DNA from: Histomonas meleagridis
Lineage: Eukaryota > Parabasalia > Tritrichomonadida > Dientamoebidae
Direction of reading: 5' to 3'
Length of the DNA: 64,000 bases
NCBI GenBank assembly: GCA_020186115.1
Contig: WSYJ01000060.1
Coordinates: 2,728,001 to 2,792,000, forward strand
The position numbers and the translations under genes were made by a program. This document shows, piece after piece, positions 4,801 to 34,390 of this stretch (the first letter of the stretch is position 1; the number at the start of each line of letters is the position of its first letter). Below the pieces are notes generated by a model. That model was not told the DNA's origin. It searched no databases and was given only the letters and a program-made list of their open reading frames with translations.

Positions 4801-5600
4801 GGGTTTTTTTGTTTTTGATCTAAAATTCTTTCTTTTTTCTTCCAAATCTATAGAATTGTGGTGTACTTAATGTAGTATAAAAAAAATAATTTTTTGGCAA
4901 ATAATATCAATAATATAGAGGAAATAATCTAATTTTCCTTGAAAACAGCATGATTTGACTAGGTCTGTTTTATAAAAAAATCACGTCACCATAAATAAAA
5001 ATCAAAATATTATTTTATCTATATTATATTTTTTAATAAGTTCTATAAATAAATAATTTTTCAGATCATAAATAATATAAATATATAGAAAACAAGAGTA
5101 TCGCACCTTTTTATTTCAGACTTTGAAATTAAGGAAATTGATGTTGGAGATAAATTGATGTTTATCTCATTATGAATAGGATTTATCAAGATACATTCAA
5201 ATTAACTTTTTATCACATATATATGTACTTTATAAAAATATTAATATTTTTATAAAAACTCTTACCTGTTTCGAGATCTTCATTTTTCGTAATATCACTT
5301 TTTCTCCAAAACGTACAAAAGAAATCACAAAAATAGGTGTTCATATATATATAGGTATATTCCTCTTTCTATGGTAGAAGTTTCGAGAAATTCCATCATG
5401 AAATTTATTTTGACTGCAGCTCTGGTTTGGTTTAGGGTCAAATTTTGTAAATCGCATTGACTTAAACCACATAAAATATGCGAAAACGCAAAACAAATGC
5501 AAGTAAAAAAGAAAAAAAAAATATCTCCAAAACATAGAACTAGAATTATTCTCTGAGCTTGAACAAATAATAATGAATCTAAAAAGAAAGAAATATATAT
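4800..5600. other. AT-rich intergenic region
   Basis: I see no coding pattern, RNA gene or repeat I can support here. The region contains many short A/T runs and a weak reverse-strand open frame (5341-5535) that starts without a good context and has low-complexity composition. Confidence 0.4.
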
Positions 5601-7361
5601 TTGTCAGCTAAACATACAATAAAATTATTTGATTTTAATTTACCATATTCATTTAATCTTGTGATAAGTAATTTAATTTATTATGCATTTTTATCACAAA
5701 GAAATAAGTGTACTACGTATTTTAAATTTTTAGAAATAATTCAAAAGAAAGAAGAGGAAAAAATTAATTCTAAATACAATATTATTGAAATATTCCTTAA
5801 TTATATCATAAGGAATAATTCTCAAGAAGCTTTATATCTAATTGAGGAAATGATAAGACAAAATTTAATTGATGCAAATATTACAAAGATAATTCCTTCA
5901 AAATATTTTGCTCATTACAAAACTACAAATGAAAACAAAAAACATATCCCCAGTGATCGATTTTGGAACTATATTGAACTTCATAAAAAAATATATTAAA
6001 GAAGGACATAATCCAAATGAAATTGCAAAAAATCATTCGAAATGATGAAATAGAAAAACTTCAAGAAAAATCATCACAAACAAATTTTGATTTTAATCAA
6101 ATAATTGAACCATCACTTTATGAAAGATATTCATTTATTAATCAAAAAAATGTTACATTAATTGATTATGCAGCATTTTTTTTTCAACTGTTAAATGTTT
6201 CAAATATTTACTTATGAATGGTGCAAAATTAGGAAATGCAGGTAAATATGCAGTTGTAGATGGAAATGAAGAAATAATTAATTTATGTGAACAAAATGGT
6301 TCATCATTTATAGGGTTATGAAATAGCAATTAAATCTCATCGAAATGATATTTTTCTTTATCTTTATGAAAATAAAATGGATAATTTGTGTAAGGAACAT
6401 GATACAAAGCCTCATAAAATTTTCTTGATATTGATTTAATAAAATTTTGTGTTATGAGTGGGAATTATGAAATCCTATCATTTTTAGAAGGAGAAGGAAC
6501 TAAATCAATGAATCTATTATCAAAAAATCAGCAGAAATTGGTAATATATATCTACTCATGTATTTTCTTCATAATAATAAGAAAAAACCAAAAAATATTT
6601 TGATTTATTCTATTAAATCAGAGAATGTTGAAGTTGTGGAATATATCATTCTTAAGCACAGAAAAGGAATCAATTTTAATTCTGTAAATATTTTTTGTAA
6701 AATTTCAATGTTTTCATATAATATTTAATAATGGTTTATTAAATTATTTAGAACACCTTTGATATATGTTGCTGAAAAAGGTAATACAGAAATAGTAAAA
6801 TTACTTGTTAAACAAAAAGGAATTGATATCAATGCGAAAGATATTCATATGTTTGATTTAAAATTTATTTTAATAATTTGATTTTTCAAAATAATATTTA
6901 AAAATTATTTAAATTATTTCAAACAGCACTTATGATTGCATCTGAAAGTGGTCATACAGAAATAGTTAAATTACTTCTTGAACAAGAAGGAATTGATGTT
7001 AATGCAAAAAATATTTATTTGTTATATTTAAAATTTATATTAATAATTTGATATTTCAAAATAATTTTTGGAAATTACAAAAAATATTTAAAACAGCACT
7101 TATTTTTGCATCTAGAGATGGTAATTTAGAAATAGTTAAATTACTTTTGGAACATAAAAGAATTGCTTTAAATGTTATAGATGATTTTTATTTACTATAA
7201 TCGATATTATTTAGAGTTACTTTGGTTTTTAAGCCAAAATTTAAAGTTTTATTATATAATTTGAAATACCATTAATTTGGGCCTCAAAAAATGGTCATAA
7301 AGATATTGTTAAAATACTTATCGAAAAAGAAGGAACTAATATTAATGCCGAAAATTTTTGA
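5601..7361 (+). pseudogene. DUF3447/ankyrin-repeat pseudogene (locus A)
   Basis: The region is homologous along its length to the better preserved locus at 31134-33820. The N-terminal domain is readable at 5601-5996 (ending ...ELHKKI), then continues in other frames after an extra A near 5990, another near 6030 and a longer disruption at 6171-6195. DUF3447-type motifs such as LIDYAAFF and NEEIINLCEQN remain. Downstream are four ankyrin blocks beginning near 6751, 6925, 7095 and 7268 (TPLIYVAEKGNTEIVKLL and relatives). Each is about 30-31 codons long and free of stops, and they are separated by AT-rich inserts. A 19-nt A tract lies at 7536-7554. The frameshifts in the N-terminal part mean no full-length protein can be made. 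Confidence 0.75.
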
Positions 7362-7369
7362 ATGTTTTG

Positions 7370-7845
7370 TTCAAGGTTTAAATTAATTAAAATGGATTAC
7401 TTGACGAGGTTAAACCTAACAATTTTTAATTCTGACATTTACAAGTGTCTGCTTATTTCTATTTTGTTGATAGTTTTGCATGCGGTTGGTGTCATATTCA
7501 TTTTTTCTCTCCGTTAAAGTTTACGGTTTTCATACAAAAAAAAAAAAAAAAAAAGTTTTGTTAGTCAAAAAAATTGAATATGCATTGTCAGATGCCAGCG
7601 GTTATGTTATTGTTTTAATTTGAGAACATATTCAAAAAACTTTTCTGGTTTGGTTTGGATTTGGCTAAAATTAAGCTTAATTCCATCACCACCGGATGAG
7701 ATCACGTCTTTACTAGAAAAACTAAAGGCATTTCACTAGGGGACTTTGTTCAGTTTCTCTATATTGCATATATTTTTCTCACCATCCAAAAATATTCATT
7801 TTATAATGCTGTTCACAATCCTTTCAAAAAGTTATTTTAAAATTC
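7370..7845. other. Intergenic region with poly(A) tract
   Basis: It holds a 19-base A run at 7536-7554 and no convincing gene. The upstream boundary of the surface-protein copy lies near 7840. Confidence 0.4.
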
Positions 7846-14297: not shown

Positions 14298-14825
14298 ATG
14301 AATAACTATTACACGGAAGCCAAAGGAAACTTAGAAATTATTCATTTATGTGAACAAAATAATTCATCATTTACAGAAGCATATGAAACAGCAATAGAAA
14401 TTCATCAAAATGAAGTTTTTTGTTATCTTTATGAAAATAAAATTGGGAAAATTTCTAATGACAGAAAAAATTCATTTTCAATGTTTTCTTTTACAAAATC
14501 GAATTCCAATATCGAAAATCAAGATAATTGTAATTTAAGTGAAGAAAATTTAATATATCTTGGGAAAAAATGCATAGAATTTAATAATTTTGAAATCTTC
14601 ACGTTTTTAGAAAAAGAAGGAATGAAAATGAATAATGAAATTATAGAAGAAATAGCATCAAAAGGAAACACATTCATAATAGAAAGTGAGATAGAAAGAC
14701 AACAAATTCCAAAAACAATTTTACCATATTCAGTTAAATCAGGAAATATAGAAATAGTCAAATTACTTTTGGATAAAGGAATTGATGTTAATGCAAAATT
14801 AATTCATTTGAATAATTTGGAAAAT

Positions 14826-15180
14826 GTTTTAATAATTTGGAATATGTTTTAATAATTTAAAATATGTTTTAATAATTTGAAACAGCACTTCATATAGCAG
14901 TTAGAAATAATAATATAGAAATAGTGAAATTACTTTTAGACAAAGGAATTGATGTTAATGCAAAAAATATTCATTTGAATAATTTTATATATGTTTTAAT
15001 AATTTGAAATATGTTTTAATAATTTGAAACAGCACTTCATATTGCAGTTAGAAATAATAATATAGAAATAGTAAAATTACTTTTAGATAAAGGAATTGAT
15101 GTTAATGTAATAAATATTCATTTTAATAATTTGTAATATGTTTTAATAATTTGATGTATGTTTTAATAATTTGAAACAGC
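14826..15180 (+). repeat. 20-nt tandem units inside ankyrin inserts
   Basis: The unit ATATGTTTTAATAATTTGAA occurs three times in the first insert (14820-14880) and twice in each of the next two (about 14985-15028 and 15133-15175). Each cluster ends directly at AACAGCACTT, the start of the next ankyrin block. The core TTTTAATAATTTG is also present in the longer inserts of the other ankyrin loci. Confidence 0.75.
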
Positions 15181-15271
15181 ACTTTATATTGAAATTGCGC
15201 AACAGTTAGATTTCAAAGAAATAAAACAATTACGAAGTGAAAAAGGTTCAAACCACAATGGGCTTTCTCAG

Positions 15272-16519: not shown

Positions 16520-18453
16520 ATGATCAAAGGAAAAATTCAAACAAATGGATATCCGCCAATGCTAACTTCACTTGAAAAAATTATTTTTATTTCAGAAAAT
16601 GAAAATATTAAAGAATCAGTAGAATCAATTCTTAATTTATATGACAACAATTATTCTTATTCATTTTTCTATATAATATGTAGATTGGTTTATTCGTCAT
16701 TTATTTCGCAACAAAAAGATATTAATATTTATTTTAACTTTTTTAACGCGTTGGATAAAAAGAAATTTGAAAACAATAATAACAATATATTTGTTGTTTT
16801 AGTTTATTATCTTTTACCATTAAGATCACAAGAATCATATTACTTAATTGAGAGTATGATTAAACAAAATTTAATTGATCCAAAAATTACCAAAAATACT
16901 GAAACAAAATATTTTGCAGTAATAAACTAAAACAAAAGAAGAGAATAGCAAAAGAAATTGGTTCCACTATGATCCACTTGAGGAAACTTTTTTAAATAAT
17001 TATGAAGAACTATCAAAGAATGATTGGGAACTTCATAAAAAGTTGATTGAAGAAGGACATAATCCAAATGAAATTGCGAAAATAATACGAAATGATGAAG
17101 TAGAAAAACTTCAATAAATTTCAGCACAACCAAAATTTGATTTTGATCAAACAATTGAACCATCACTTTATGAAAGATTTTCTTTTATTAATACACAAAA
17201 TGTTAAATTAATTGATTATGCAGCATTTTTTGGATCAATTAAATGTTTTAGATATTTACTTATGAATAAAGCCAATGTATATAATACAGGTAAATATGCA
17301 GATGCAGGAGGAAATATAGAAATCATTCATTTATGTGAACAAAAACATTTATCATTTAAAGATGCCTATGAAACAGCAATTGAATTTCATCGAAATGAAA
17401 TCTTTAAATATCTTTATGAAAATAAAATTATTAAAACATTAGATATAAAAGATTTAGAAATGAAATGTATTTCACATGATTCATATAAACTTCTTAAGTT
17501 TTTAATGAAAAAAGAAGATTCTAAATTCATAGAATCTAATGTTTATGAATCAGCACGGATTGGTAATTTATTTCTGGTAAAATATTTTATTGATGATTAT
17601 TTCATTCCAATAAATATTTTAATTCCTTTTGTATGTTCTGAAAATATTGAAATATGCAAAATGATTCTTGAAAAAAGAAAATGGGGTGTTAATGCAAAAG
17701 ATGTTTGTTTGTATTGTATGATAATTATTTTAATAATTTGATATTTTGAAATAATATTTGGAAATTTTTTTAATATTATTTTGGACAGCACTTATTAGAG
17801 CATCTGAAAATGGTTACATAGAAATCGTAAAGTTAATTTTAGCAAAAAAAAAGAACTGAAATTAATGTTAACGATATTTATTTATTTTATTTGGAATTTA
17901 TTTTAATAATTTGATATTTTAAAATAATTTTTAGAAATTATTGAATTTTTTTAGAACAACACTTATATGTGCATCTGAAAAAGGTCATACAGAAATAGTT
18001 AAATTACTTATAGCACAAAAAGGTATTGATATTGATAATAAAAATATTTTTTTATTTTATACAAAATTCATTTTAATAATATGAAAATATAATATAATAT
18101 TAATGCTAAAGATATTTATTTATTTTATTTGGAATTTATTTAAATAATTTCCTATTTTGAAATAATATTTGGAAATTATATAAATTATTTGAAACAGCAC
18201 TTATTGAAGCATCTGAAAAAGGTCATACAGAAATAGTTAAATTACTTCTTGAACAAAAAGGTATTGATATCAATGCTAAAAATATTTAATTGTTTAGATT
18301 ATAATTTAATTTAATGATTTAAAAATACAATATAATATTTGGAAATTATATTTTTTATTTGAAACTGCACTTATAATAGCATTAAATAATGGTCATCTTA
18401 TCATCTATTATCTGATAAAAAATAAAATTCCAACGATGAAAACATGTAGATAG
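16520..18453 (+). pseudogene. DUF3447/ankyrin pseudogene (locus C)
   Basis: The start MIKGKIQTNGYPPML is clean and the first 136 codons align with the N-terminal domain of the 31-kb locus. A frameshift near 16918 moves the reading frame, which then continues (NWFHYDPLEETF...) but meets an in-frame TAA at 17115-17117 where the 31-kb locus has GAA. The frame reopens through the DUF3447 motif LIDYAAFFGSIKC and an ankyrin region to 17741. Further ankyrin blocks start at about 17787, 17956, 18195 and 18364, separated by AT-rich inserts. One block has an extra A in a homopolymer near 17850, and one insert carries a partial block (INAKDIYLF near 18100). The last block runs into a natural-looking C-terminus at 18451-18453. 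It is only lightly damaged, so the loss of function is recent or partly due to sequence error. Confidence 0.75.
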
Positions 18454-29227: not shown

Positions 29228-30721
29228 ATGGGTTTCGATTCAAAACATTCTATCGCTCTATTTTCCCAAACAAAATATTTTGAATACTTTGGGAATTTTT
29301 ATCAGGGCCAACAATATTTCATGAGAACACAACCTATATCAATAAAAAGCAAATATACCCTTCTTAATAAAATTGGGGCAGGAAGCTTTGGCCAAATATT
29401 TGTATGTCAAGATAAAGATGGTAATAAATATGCTGCGAAATTTGAAGATAATAGGACAAAGTATCCTCAACTCAAATATGAAGCAAAGCTTTATAATATA
29501 TTTTCAGGCGCTGTCAATATAGGAAAACTTCATTGGTTTGGAACTCAAGCAACCAATGATATAATGGTAATTGACTTATTTGGTAAGTCAATAGAAGCTC
29601 TCTTCCGTGGACCTCAAAGGCTTACACTTAAGACAGTTTTAATGCTTGCTGATCAAATGATATCAAGTGTTGAATATATCCACAAAAGATCTTTTATACA
29701 CAGAGATATAAAACCAGATAATTTTGTTATGGGTCTTGGAAAAAATGCTTCTCAAGTTTATATCATTGATTTTGGACTTTCCAAAAGATATCGAGATTTA
29801 TCAACATATGAACATATTCCTTTAGTTGAAGGCAAAAACCTCACTGGCACGGCCCGATATGCATCTATTAATGCACTTAAAGGACTTGAACAATCTAGAC
29901 GAGATGATATGGAATCACTTGGATATGTATTTGTTTATTTACTCAAAGGCACACTTCCATGGATTGGTCTCAGTGGTGACAAATTGAAAACAAAATTCGA
30001 AATGATTTGTGATTACAAAGAAAATATTCCATTATCTCGTGTATGTGAAGGTCTTCCATCCGAGTTTGCTGAATACCTTCGATTAGTTCGTCATCTAGAC
30101 TTTACTGAAGAACCAGAATATTCACGATATCGCCAAATGTTTCGAGATTTATTCATTCGAAAAGGCTATATCTACGATTACAAATATGATTGGTCTTCCA
30201 CACCTACCATTGGGTTTCGAAGAGAGCGTAGATTCACACAAACAGGAAAAGCGCCACGACCACCAGCATCGCGACCGTTTAGAGGCCTATCGTTCAGAGA
30301 ACCTTCGCCTCAAGAAACTAAAGAATCCATTCATCCAAGCTTTAGTCGTGCTGGTTTATCACTTAAGAGTAACCTAAACTCAATGAAAGTTCAAGTTCAA
30401 ATGTCCGCCGTTAATGATTTACCCAAAGATTCATCAGATACATTTTCATCGTCAACAATATCGACTGAAACCACAACATCATCAAGCTCATCTGAAACAT
30501 CTTCTGAGTCATATTCATCTTCAGACTTATTGGCGTACTTTAAAAAGAATAATCAAGAAATTGAAACAGATTCATCAACAGAAAAATCCGAACCAATGAC
30601 AAAGTTACAATGTAATAAAGCAGATGATAAGAGTAAACATGCAATGTCATCAAAGTTGGTGCATTCACCTGTACCTAAGCCAACTGTCATACCAATTTGG
30701 TCGAAGAAACCCAATGAATAA
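29228..30721 (+). CDS. CK1-family protein kinase
   Basis: 497 residues from the ATG at 29228. A second Met (residue 32, 29321), just before the conserved kinase core, could be the real start. The catalytic domain has the glycine loop GAGSFG (50-55), the lysine in AAKFE (Lys71), HRDIKPDNF (158-166), DFG (181-183) and the CK1 signature TGTARYASINAL...QSRRDDMESLGYV. It is missing the APE motif, as all CK1 kinases are. The tail from about residue 320 is Pro/Ser-rich with long Ser/Thr runs and is likely regulatory by autophosphorylation. Trichomonads have many CK1 paralogs. The stop is TAAA. Confidence 0.93.
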   Translation: MGFDSKHSIALFSQTKYFEYFGNFYQGQQYFMRTQPISIKSKYTLLNKIGAGSFGQIFVCQDKDGNKYAAKFEDNRTKYPQLKYEAKLYNIFSGAVNIGKLHWFGTQATNDIMVIDLFGKSIEALFRGPQRLTLKTVLMLADQMISSVEYIHKRSFIHRDIKPDNFVMGLGKNASQVYIIDFGLSKRYRDLSTYEHIPLVEGKNLTGTARYASINALKGLEQSRRDDMESLGYVFVYLLKGTLPWIGLSGDKLKTKFEMICDYKENIPLSRVCEGLPSEFAEYLRLVRHLDFTEEPEYSRYRQMFRDLFIRKGYIYDYKYDWSSTPTIGFRRERRFTQTGKAPRPPASRPFRGLSFREPSPQETKESIHPSFSRAGLSLKSNLNSMKVQVQMSAVNDLPKDSSDTFSSSTISTETTTSSSSSETSSESYSSSDLLAYFKKNNQEIETDSSTEKSEPMTKLQCNKADDKSKHAMSSKLVHSPVPKPTVIPIWSKKPNE

Positions 30722-31133
30722 AGATAGAAACGGTTGTTTTAGATTTTTTGATGAAATTTCTAAATGTTTTCATTGGTGATTGATGAATTTATTAAATTAT
30801 TAATCACAATTTGTAATTTGTTAGAAAATTGAAGATAATTTCATTATAGTTTTTTGTGAACACTGATTTCTTAAATGAATGGGAATGATTTCCTAGAATT
30901 AGAAAAACGTAGTAATATACATTCACTTGTAAAAAATTGTTGAAATTATTATTGGCATTATTGTATGATTATAAGTTCATATACTAGTCATATTTGTTAA
31001 AAGCATATATTCATTTTTGCTCAATATATTTTTGTTGTATTTTTGAAAAAAAAAAAAAAAAAAAATCAGTATATTTTAATCGTCATTTCCCACTCAAAAA
31101 GTTTATCAAAAATGTGCCATTAAGTTGCATCGT
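30722..31133. other. Intergenic region with poly(A) tract
   Basis: A 20-nt A run at 31046-31065 lies about 70 nt before the ankyrin gene start. Otherwise no feature is supported. Confidence 0.4.
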
Positions 31134-33820
31134 ATGTCATCAGAAAGATTAAATGACGAAAAAATGGAAAATCAAAGTGAATTTGAAACAATTTTGTTTC
31201 TAAAACAGATAATCTTTAGTTTAAATGAAGTAAATTTTACACAATCAGCGAATACTATATTTAACAAATTCGATGAAAATTACCCAATTTCTTTTAATTT
31301 AATTATAAATCAAATGATATACACACAGTTTGTACTGAAAAATAACAACCCTGATATATATTTAAACTTTTTGAAAGAAATCAAAGCATTAGAAGAGAAA
31401 AATGGGAGCAAAATAAATATAATTGATGAATTTATAAGTTACCTTTTGTCCAAACAAATACAAGAAGCAAATTATCTTCTTTATTATATGAACAAACAAA
31501 AACTTTTTGAACCAAATCTTGAAGAAAACAAATCGAATCCATATTTTTCACATTACATGTCAAAAAAAGAAATTAAAGCATTAAAATTTAATAAATTTAT
31601 GAAACAAATACTTAAAAATTATGATGAACTATCAAAGAATGATTGGGAACTTCATAAGAAATTAATTGAAGAAGGAGTTAATCCAAATAAAATTGCAAAA
31701 ATAATTCGAAATGATGAAATCAAACAACTTCAAGAAATATCATCACAAACCAATTTTGATTTTAATCAATACATTAAACTATCTCCTTATGAAAGATGTT
31801 CTTTTGTTGGTTGGGAATATATAAAAGTTTCGTTAATTGATTATGCTGCATTTTTTGGATCTATTAAATGTTTTAAATATTTGCTTATGAATAATGCCGA
31901 TGTAAATAACACAGGCAAATATGCAGTTGCAGGTGGAAATGAAGAAATTATTCATTTATGTGTACAAAATCATTCATCATTTGAAGGTGCATATGAAACA
32001 GCAATAAAATTCCATCAAAATGATATCTTTAAATATCTTTATGAAAATAAATTCGAAAAAATCAAAAAATTAGAAACACTAAGTGGAGTATGTATTTGTT
32101 ATCATAATTATGAAATTTTTAATTTTCTACTTGAAGAAGGAATGAAAATAAACAACAATGTTATTAATAACGCAGCAAGATATGGTAACTTATATCTTGT
32201 TAAATATTTTCTGAAAGAAAATCAAATCCCTATAAATATTTTGGCTTTTTCCGCAAATTCAAATAATATTGAGCTTATTAAATATGTTTTAGAACATGAA
32301 GGAATTGATGTTAATGCTAAAAATATTTATTTGTTTTATTTGATATTTATTTTAATAATTTTATATTTCAAAATAATATTTGGAAATTATTTAATTTATT
32401 TGATACAGCACTTTTCCTTGCAGCACAAAATAATTATAAAGATATAGTTATTTTACTTATTAAACAAGAAGGAATTGATGTTAATGCTAAAAGTATTCAT
32501 TTATTTTATTTGAAATTTATTTTTATGATTTTATCTTTCTAAATAATATTTGGAATTTGTTAAAATTATTTGAAACAGCACTTATAAAAGCAACCGCATT
32601 TGGTTATACAGATATAGTTAAATTACTTCTTGAACATGAAGAAATTGATACAAATGCTGAAAATATTGAATAGTTTTATTTGAAATTTATTTTAATAATT
32701 TAATATTTCAAAATAATATTTGGAAATTATTTAATTTATTTCAAACAGCACTTTATGTTGCTTATCTATTTGGTTATACAGATATAATTAAATTACTTAT
32801 TGTGCATAAAGGAACTAAAATAAAAAAATTAGATGATTTATAATATTTGATACTTATTTTGATATTTTAATATTTATAAATAACATTTGGAAATTATATA
32901 AATTATTTTATACATTACTTATATGGGCATCTGAATTTAATCATATTGATATAGTTAAATTACTTCTTGAACAAAGATCAATTAATATCAATGAACAAGA
33001 TATTTATTTGTTTTGTTTAATATTTATTTTAATAAATTGATGTTTTAATAAAAATATTTGGAAATTAATTAAATTATTTAAAACAGCTATTATAAAAGCA
33101 TGTGAGGAAAATCACATAGAAATCGTTAAATTACTTCTTGAACAAGAAGAAATTGATATTAATGCTAAAGATATTATTTATTATAATAATTTTATATTTC
33201 AAAATAATATTTGGAAATTATTTAAATTATTCAGAACAGCACTTATTTTGGCATCTTCATGTGGTTATACAGAAATAGTTAAATTACTTCTTGAACAAAA
33301 AGGAATTGATATTAATGTTAAAGATATTTGTTTCGATTGTTTAAAGGCTGTTTTAATTATTTATTATTTCAAAGTAATATTTAGAAATATTTTATATTGT
33401 ATGATACGGCACTTATTGAAGCATCTGGATATGGTTATACAGAAATAGTTAAATTACTTCTTGAACAAGAAGGAATTGATATTAATGCTGTTAATATTTA
33501 TTTATTTTATTTTCTGTTTATTTTATTATTTTGATATATAAAAATAATACTTGAAAATAATTTAAATTATTTTATACAGCACTTATGTGGGCAGCTGAAG
33601 AAGGTTACATAGATATAGTAAAATTACTTCTTAAACAAAAAGACATAGATGTTAATGTTAAAAAAATTAATTTAGTTTATTGAATATTGATTAAAATAAT
33701 TTAACATTTTAAATTAATATTTAAGAATTTTTTATTTCACAATATACAGCACTTGAAATGGCATCTCTAAATGAACATACAGAAATAGTGAATTTGCTTC
33801 TTGAGTATAAAGGAAATTGA
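31134..33820 (+). CDS. DUF3447/ankyrin-repeat protein, repeats split by AT-rich inserts (locus D)
   Basis: The best preserved of the ankyrin loci. The start is the ATG at 31134; the frame upstream of it depends on a TTG. A helical N-terminal domain (about 200 residues) is followed by the DUF3447 region (LIDYAAFFGSIKCFKYLL, ADVNNTGKYAVAGGNEEIIHLC, AYETAIKFHQNDIFKYLYEN) and a first ankyrin region ending NAKNI at 32327. From there nine ankyrin blocks follow, starting at 32405, 32575, 32745, 32912, 33083, 33236, 33406, 33576 and 33746. The first eight are exactly 31 codons without stops; the ninth ends at a natural-looking TGA (33818). Between blocks are inserts of 77, 77, 77, 74, 78, 60, 77, 77 and 77 nt that carry stops or change frame, so a continuous protein requires their removal. 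Such proteins likely act by protein binding. Without splicing the product would stop at 32447. Confidence 0.7.
32328..33745 (+). repeat. 170-bp array: AT-rich insert plus ankyrin block, about nine units
   Basis: Unit starts (ACAGCACTT or variant) are spaced 170, 170, 167, 171, 153, 170, 170 and 170 bp. The insert has a shared pattern: TATTTGTTTTATTTG near the start, TTTATTTTAATAATTTGATA in the middle, AATATTTGGAAATTATTTAA later and TTATTTGAA just before the next ankyrin block. Because 170 is not a multiple of three, the ankyrin frame rotates from unit to unit. Confidence 0.9.
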
Positions 33821-33829
33821 ACATTTGGA

Positions 33830-34390
33830 TAGACAATTTTTAAACATTATTTGTAAATTTTTAAATCAACTTATGAGACAAAACTTTCATATCAGCTCAA
33901 ACAATCAAATACAATTTAGATTTTAATGATATTTAAATATAACCAAATATGTTTTATGTAGAGATGTTTAATCAATTTTTTTGATCATAATTGCTCTTTT
34001 ATTAGACTTCATTTACAAGATCCTGTTCTAAAAGTGGCACTTATTCAACTCCTATCGTTAGGGGCACCTTGCCCAAAAGAAAAAACACTATAAGCTTTTT
34101 GATGAGATAAGTATACTTTAGACTTGATTTTGATTTCAGCATAATATAAATCCAAATTCTTGCTTTGTATGAAATCACATGAACAATATAAAACCACATG
34201 AATCAAAATTTCAAATAAAATAAAATAAAAGTAAAAAAAAAAAAAAAAAAAAAATTACCTAAATATATATTAATTGTTTTGTGATTATATTTCGGAATTC
34301 ATATTTTAATACTGAATATAAAGATCTCGAAACAGATTTCGGTAATCATCATAAATTCAAACGGTTACTCAATTAATTAACGGTCATCAT
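33830..34390. other. Intergenic region with poly(A) tract
   Basis: A 22-nt A run at 34233-34254 is present. AACGGTTAC near 34360 and AACGGTC at 34379-34385 precede the VPS9 gene and are Myb-like. No gene is seen. Confidence 0.4.

Follow-up and report, generated by a model that had tools for sequence, protein, structure and literature searches.

The interrupted ankyrin gene of the window

The gene described here occupies positions 31134 to 33820 of a 64,000-nt stretch of the genome of Histomonas meleagridis, a poultry parasite of the family Dientamoebidae in the parabasalid group Tritrichomonadida. This whole stretch of analyzed DNA is termed the window, and all feature positions refer to its forward strand. 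The gene is one member of a very large ankyrin gene family of this organism. It begins with an uninterrupted coding part, in which a first ankyrin block starts at 32235, and continues with nine further ankyrin blocks, which start at 32405, 32575, 32745, 32912, 33083, 33236, 33406, 33576, and 33746. Five of the eight steps between these starts measure 170 bp, and the remaining three measure 167, 171, and 153 bp. The blocks are separated by nine junctions with AT-rich inserts, extending from 32325 to 33745. A preliminary description of this DNA had reported regular ankyrin blocks with frame-breaking inserts and a last block ending in TGA. Both observations are borne out by the nine starts, the 77-nt inserts (60–78 nt, after subtraction of 31 codons), and the TGA at 33820.

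The junctions can be read as single codons fenced by 17-nt spacers. In the typical arrangement, D30-[17]-x31-[17]-x32-[17]-G33-[17]-x34-T1, each 77-nt insert consists of four 17-nt spacers and the single codons among them, and the reading without spacers yields the canonical ankyrin DxxGxT loop and a 34-residue repeat. A repeat with this loop and a TALxxAxxxGxxEIVKLLL core denotes an ankyrin repeat protein, on which the blocks, the loop codons, and the Pfam Ank_2 and DUF3447 matches in the 5' part agree. The predicted boundaries between spacers and codons are fixed to the base by the codon evidence alone. The window junctions were read from the right, and the lengths of junctions 5 and 6 were set by hand. 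The right-hand reading also defines junctions 4 and 9, since an automatic parse misread both (junction 9 at its end). The features are as follows.

31134..32324, + strand: uninterrupted 5' coding part, from the ATG to the AAT codon of position 30 of the first ankyrin block; DUF3447/ankyrin protein (translation; Pfam Ank_2 and DUF3447 above cut-offs)
32325..32404, + strand: junction 1, with spacers 32325-32341, 32345-32361, 32365-32381, and 32385-32401, and codons GAT (D) at 32342, TAT (Y) at 32362, GGA (G) at 32382, and GAT (D) at 32402 (codon/spacer reading)
32405..32494, + strand: ankyrin block 1, 30 codons, from T1 to position 30
32495..32574, + strand: junction 2, four 17-nt spacers, codons E, Y, G, E
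32575..32664, + strand: ankyrin block 2
32665..32744, + strand: junction 3, four 17-nt spacers, codons E, N, G, Q
32745..32831, + strand: ankyrin block 3, shorter by one codon
32832..32911, + strand: junction 4, four 17-nt spacers, codons D, N, G, Y (read from the right)
32912..33001, + strand: ankyrin block 4
33002..33082, + strand: junction 5, spacers of 17, 17, 18, and 17 nt, codons N, D, G, K
33083..33172, + strand: ankyrin block 5
33173..33235, + strand: junction 6, three-spacer form, ATT (I) directly after D30, then three 17-nt spacers, codons Y, G, R
33236..33325, + strand: ankyrin block 6
33326..33405, + strand: junction 7, four 17-nt spacers, codons K, I, R, D
33406..33495, + strand: ankyrin block 7
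33496..33575, + strand: junction 8, four 17-nt spacers, codons S, D, E, Y
33576..33665, + strand: ankyrin block 8
33666..33745, + strand: junction 9, four 17-nt spacers, codons N, N, K, Y (read from the right)
33746..33820, + strand: last ankyrin block, ending in TGA at 33820

The nine window junctions contain 36 loop codons and no stop, and codon 33 encodes Gly in six of them. A single spacer among 35 is 18 nt long, and only junction 6 has three spacers. No 17-nt spacers were seen in the 5' part (31134..32324). In the last three junctions of the array (33326-33745), codon 33 encodes R, E, and K in place of Gly, which would fit an older or relaxed 3' end. Three further spacer-split arrays are located in the window, at approximately 6.7–7.4, 14.7–15.2, and 17.7–18.4 kb.

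Junction layout across the genome

The genome searched was the 43.28-Mb assembly, comprising 121 contigs. The fetched loci (denoted by L numbers) were 20 stretches of 9.9 kb around places matching the boundary word of insert and block, nine shorter stretches taken later, and loci cut by searches. Thirteen loci (L001-L008, L029-L033), which were controls, splice-motif matches, or uninterrupted relatives, were left out before the counts; one of these, L001, likewise shows 79-nt gaps. The window and the fetched loci together provided 452 blocks and 373 distinct junctions. The insert lengths are tightly kept, with 225 of the 373 measuring 79 and 69 measuring 62 on the scale of the profile.

The layout was found through the per-position divergence of close unit pairs, which revealed hypervariable triplets inside the insert, recurring with a 20-nt period and in phase with the variable codon preceding TAL. 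In a three-spacer class, the insert is exactly 17 shorter and codon 31 directly follows D30, and many other insert lengths differ by 3 (one codon) or by 20 (a spacer and a codon). The automatic parse resolved 298 of 343 junctions into codons and exact 17-nt spacers only, including 204 standard four-spacer and 59 three-spacer junctions. Since the parser is biased against stops, this parse is a description and not a test. The spacers are AT-rich, and their ends conform by majority, not invariably, to RTTT...ATTT. As to a possible branch-point A at a fixed position, base frequencies show A at position 14 in 78% of 396 distinct spacers and at position 11 in 68%.

Loops of 7 and 11 codons at L026 parse without stops, indicating that codon-plus-spacer units expand in tandem. 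A sub-family at window 14715-15190 and L026:6900-7720 has blocks shorter by one codon (LLLDKGIDVNAK) and spacers that are near-identical 17-mers (ATATGTTTTAATAATTT). Within L022:3000-7480, a higher-order repeat of about 1,115 nt, composed of seven ankyrin units, is present in roughly three tandem copies within one array. One gene, L037, contains both spacer-split junctions and one spacer-free junction. In 33 distinct uninterrupted junctions of the same genome, a count that took in only junctions with four residues between D30 and T1, exactly four residues of similar make-up link these positions, with Gly in 15 of the 33.

The inserts break the frame, as the preliminary description had stated, and cannot simply be translated through, because the usual unit, 170, is not divisible by 3 and 30 of 45 three-spacer inserts contain an in-frame stop. 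Translation through the insert, with or without one frameshift, was rejected as well: 26 of 117 four-spacer inserts are unreadable by any single shift, and the single-shift reading possible in the other 91 leaves the codon signals described below unexplained. A candidate 17-nt spacer in a 5' part, indicated by a tblastn gap of 17 at L025, proved to be a four-spacer junction of the ordinary type; irregular indels make up the other breaks inspected. Some blocks carry one extra base (window 17785-17876, L012:4808-4899, and L022:4046-4299), with the frame breaking after the KK/KR of the EQK motif. Eleven such blocks occur among the 358 that match the profile nearly end to end, and the extra base may reflect a homopolymer assembly error or recent decay.

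Selection on blocks, loop codons and spacers

Of these 358 blocks, 335 have the modal length of 91 nt. An in-frame stop is present in four of the 335, as compared with 311 and 335 in the other two frames; this result and the slow change of the framework codons uphold the earlier proposal that the blocks are under protein-level selection. The loop codons exhibit the same depletion. The four triplets spaced by 20 nt contain no stop among 840 in 210 four-spacer junctions, while 46.7 are expected when the columns are shuffled independently. Among all 80 offsets, the three largest stop deficits fall on codons 34 (27.2), 31 (8.6), and 32 (7.9); the fourth, 7.2, falls on offset 44, where 19 stops remain. 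Codon 33 is Gly in 177 of the 210 four-spacer and 53 of 64 three-spacer junctions, and it is retained in 16 of the 21 four-spacer junctions whose spacers are less than 75% identical to the consensus. The first-fetched loci (Gly33 in 93 of 112, stops 0/448) and the later-fetched loci (Gly33 in 84 of 98, stops 0/392) agree, in a split that falls short of full independence, as every sequence was already available when the layout was recognized.

Divergence was compared between nearest neighbors within identity bands. Since each pair was formed within one length class, indels do not enter the rates. In the 28 closest pairs, the differences amount to 4/330 at 4-fold sites, 28/1904 in spacers, 15/168 in the exposed block codons 5 and 8, and 11/84, 8/84, 1/84, and 15/84 in codons 31, 32, 33, and 34, respectively. 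The rates in the three bands are as follows.

28 pairs: 4-fold sites 0.012; spacers 0.015; codons 31 to 34, 0.131, 0.095, 0.012, 0.179; exposed codons 5/8, 0.089
53 pairs: 4-fold sites 0.034; spacers 0.047; codons 31 to 34, 0.233, 0.289, 0.063, 0.314; exposed codons 5/8, 0.299
65 pairs: 4-fold sites 0.052; spacers 0.077; codons 31 to 34, 0.426, 0.477, 0.103, 0.600; exposed codons 5/8, 0.592

Against a 4-fold rate of 0.012, the closest pairs show rates of 0.007 for framework codons and 0.09–0.18 for exposed ones. Codons 31, 32, and 34 thus diverge as other exposed ankyrin codons do. Taken together, the absence of stops, the retention of Gly33, and the pattern of rates demonstrate that selection acts on the loop triplets as codons and does not act on the spacers. 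The rapidly changing codons (31, 32, and 34 of the loop, 5 and 8 of the block) are exposed ankyrin positions, which we take to be those in contact with targets, and the family probably serves as a binding repertoire.

These rates modify two earlier expectations. Conservation had been thought limited to the blocks; the spacers of the closest pairs change at nearly the 4-fold rate (0.015 versus 0.012 per site), and the insert as a whole is less diverged than the block in the three bands above 80% identity, because the exposed block codons are hypervariable, and more diverged only in the 70–80% band. The arrays had also been suggested to be a recently amplified satellite, and a satellite under no selection is countered by the difference between codon and spacer rates in the closest pairs. 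A related possibility is that the arrays are dead, the ankyrin repeats and AT-rich filler having been co-amplified as a satellite and expressed no further than the 5' part. Tandem amplification is evident, some 5' parts are broken, and the pN/pS of the blocks between units is 0.85 to 1.07 across four identity bands. This near-unity value is an average over framework and hypervariable codons. Dead arrays would account neither for the missing loop stops and the Gly33 kept beside diverged spacers, nor for the contrast of framework, exposed, and 4-fold rates, nor for the 331 of 335 stop-free blocks, and we consider this explanation highly improbable.

The preliminary description had also offered one intron per ankyrin repeat. 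A single intron of about 77 nt would agree with inserts that break the frame, many of them containing stops, and some frame-restoring GT..AG pair is found in 77 of 200 four-spacer and 10 of 61 three-spacer units. However, these pairs share no common place, the most frequent one occurring in 16 of the 200 four-spacer units. Such an intron would also discard codons 31–34, on which selection acts at the codon level and without which the 34-residue repeat is incomplete. The insert instead carries three or four codons (x31, x32, Gly33, and x34) and usually corresponds to four intervening sequences per repeat, so that a single intron is hardly credible. Of the earlier interpretation, the removal of the inserts therefore fits the data, and the single intron and the satellite do not.

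Fate of the spacers and comparison with known systems

The best explanation, which we regard as rather probable, is that the ankyrin loop is cut codon by codon by 17-nt spacers that are absent from the protein and would most likely be excised from RNA. Each spacer would be cut out of the transcript in the manner of a very small intron with a fixed length, recognized by its length and its AT-rich ends (RTTT...ATTT) and not by GT-AG. The finished protein would then have ordinary 34-residue ankyrin repeats, as in the uninterrupted relatives of the same genome. We infer that the gene is expressed and that removal occurs at the RNA level, by a machine that may be an altered spliceosome acting on 17-nt introns or something else. 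A spliceosome is present, as two U2 loci score 80.5 and 79.3 bits (cut-off 46); one U6 match reaches 43.7 bits, just under the cut-off of 44. Spliceosomal introns of Stentor coeruleus are 15–16 nt long (PMC9505925), and the closeness of the fixed spacer length to these tiny introns makes excision from RNA the least exotic reading.

The same fixed length, and the lack of splice signals in the spacers, would also suit an mRNA that keeps the spacers while ribosomes hop over each 17-nt spacer during translation, in many short hops. Mass bypassing is known in the mitochondria of Magnusiomyces capitatus, at 81 positions, some without perfectly matched codons (PMC5009743). In the present junctions, the codon before a spacer equals the last three bases of that spacer in 12 of 929 cases, against a shuffled mean of 9.3, so that take-off and landing codons matched as in T4 are absent. 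A nuclear gene read with some four hops in every repeat would demand extraordinary efficiency. Ribosome skipping is thus judged unlikely, although it would make the finding larger still.

Removal could alternatively take place at the DNA level, in some developmental stage or nucleus. The spacers resemble the internal eliminated sequences of ciliates in being short AT-rich sequences between small coding pieces. Those of Paramecium have TA boundaries. A TA start is found in only 3 of 382 distinct spacers, and thus no boundary of the Paramecium kind exists. The spacers are also kept in the sampled junctions of the sequenced genome (one assembly), and two kinds of nuclei are not known from parabasalids. 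We consider DNA-level removal very unlikely.

Two proteins from elsewhere, P0002 and P0013, also speak for the proposed excision of spacers from RNA. Eighteen family proteins were examined, 17 of them mostly ENA (European Nucleotide Archive; metagenome) entries, here numbered with a P. In 16 of the 17, the frame ends at or runs past the NAKD position, as in the window; P0008 stops earlier. Four of them (P0002, P0003, P0011, and P0013) run at least 20 residues past position 30; the other frames are too short for a comparison of spacing. In P0002, Gly is residue 20 after position 30 (57 nt between), the same as in the window's own frame. P0013 has the three-spacer form, with TAL after exactly 20 residues (60 nt) from K31. 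About 100 candidates were scored per search of the genome with these proteins, and among the matches listed the best identities to H. meleagridis are 55% for P0002, 57% (part) and 53% (long matches) for P0013, and 60% over its length and 65% over part for P0004. P0002 and P0013 apparently derive from another organism, and their spacing together with their low identity suggests that the spacer arrangement is probably older than H. meleagridis, or at least not private to this assembly. A search of the protein collection for spacer-free family proteins with a four-repeat consensus gave matches of 40–64% identity in the best 120 of 150, and the seven inspected resemble other ankyrin proteins. The ankyrin-annotated unigene KANK1 of an H. 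meleagridis proteomics table could not be tied to the spacer family (PMC10063853).

Tentatively, and with somewhat less than even confidence, we propose that Histomonas and a relative may use a removal system that is neither a GT-AG spliceosome nor T4-type bypassing and that would mark off spacers of 17 nt from one single codon to the next, at thousands of sites within a single gene family. If such a system exists, single loop codons, which form the binding surface of an ankyrin repertoire, would be separate exons that could be gained, lost, or swapped individually.

Several observations weigh against excision of the spacers from RNA. The removal is deduced from selection alone, and 3-nt exons between 17-nt introns would be extreme for a spliceosome. 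None of the 382 distinct spacers has both GT and AG at its ends (35 start with GT and 2 end with AG), and the fused branch-site/3' motif ACTAACACACAG has 3 exact genome matches against 2 for the reversed control, in a search that did not include degenerate forms. The earlier remark that known parabasalid intron signals are missing thus stands. Four insert sequences folded no better than their shuffles (z 0 to 1.6), and the insert as a single RNA hairpin was rejected on this ground. The layout also has exceptions: 45 of the 343 junctions fail the exact-17 parse, 35 of these having one 16- or 18-nt spacer (20 otherwise standard), and another 30, whose upstream block contains an indel, were kept out of the parse. 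Among the 256 triplets of the three-spacer class there is one stop. Spacers change at 1.2 to 1.5 times the 4-fold rate, with the larger excess in the wider bands, and in these bands codon 33, framework-like in the closest pairs, exceeds the spacers (0.063 versus 0.047 and 0.103 versus 0.077). Among the proteins from elsewhere, P0003 has Trp instead of Gly at the predicted place, and P0011 has its Gly one residue late, which an extra codon would explain. Most loci were picked for the boundary motif or an ankyrin-block match. Finally, the 5' part is broken in some family members, which resemble ordinary pseudogenes. Irregular indels break the 5' parts of relatives standing beside intact copies at window 5586-6690 and 16571-17702 and on the minus strands of L009, L012, and L021.

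The family is widespread in the genome. The boundary word of insert and block has 5,293 genome matches at up to 3 mismatches, as compared with 9 for its reversed control, and TTTGGA-N{8,32}-ACAGCACTT has 3,189 matches versus 0 reversed. Although gaps of 8–32 were permitted in the latter, the gap is 20 nt (17+3) in 98 of the 100 matches listed and 21 in the other 2. Because the exact TTTGGA...ACAGCACTT word, matched 3,189 times, is held by 196 of the 373 sampled junctions, the family total is roughly estimated at 6,000 junctions and, at 3.8 spacers each, more than 20,000 spacers. This estimate is biased towards too few junctions, as the sample was largely chosen for a related word. In the fetched sequence, from loci chosen for ankyrin arrays, none of 374 insert-profile matches lies away from ankyrin blocks. 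Around the window gene itself, a protein kinase gene (Pfam Pkinase, 29228-30721) is situated directly upstream, and poly-A runs of about 20 flank the gene upstream (31046-31065) and downstream (34233-34254). A similar run follows another array, near 7536-7554.

If the spacers are removed from RNA, H. meleagridis would have about twenty thousand intervening sequences by this rough estimate, against the 573 introns, at most one per gene, of its AUGUSTUS annotation (PMC8529796). The exons of one codon would lie outside present models of intron recognition; if excision proved to be spliceosomal, the layout would be a variant within a known intron class. Removal or skipping of the spacers would also reveal a large, fast-diversifying ankyrin repertoire, which gene models confined to a single frame truncate behind the first repeat.

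The spacers share features with several known systems and differ from each. Like the internal eliminated sequences of ciliates, they are short AT-rich intervening sequences in coding DNA; those sequences are cut from DNA and bounded by TA or pointers, whereas the spacers lack a TA boundary. With the Stentor introns they share a near-fixed, extremely short length, AU-richness, and large numbers per genome, but those introns are mostly GU..AG, and the spacers are 17 nt long, without GT-AG ends, and separated by one-codon exons (PMC9505925). Trichomonas vaginalis and T. stableri, likewise parabasalids, have short introns of 23–28 nt, 63 of them active in T. vaginalis and some within ankyrin genes, with GT-AG ends and a fused branch-site/3' motif (PMC12316389); the spacers lack GT-AG, and the motif does not exceed the control in the H. 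meleagridis genome. The bypassing elements of Magnusiomyces capitatus mitochondria and phage T4 gene 60 are also short frame-breaking inserts within coding sequence (PMC5009743). Unlike these, the spacers have one fixed length, fence single codons, and reside in nuclear genes. Other trichomonads, such as Tritrichomonas foetus, possess the same DUF3447/ankyrin family, with long annotated ankyrin proteins, by their listing alone. No title or abstract describing single codons between 17-nt spacers was found in the open-licence literature on Histomonas, trichomonad introns, short introns, or ankyrin insertions. Because a defining feature of each family of intervening sequences tested is lacking here, the spacer layout, as judged from the genome, matches no intron type or skipping system compared and appears to be new as a layout.
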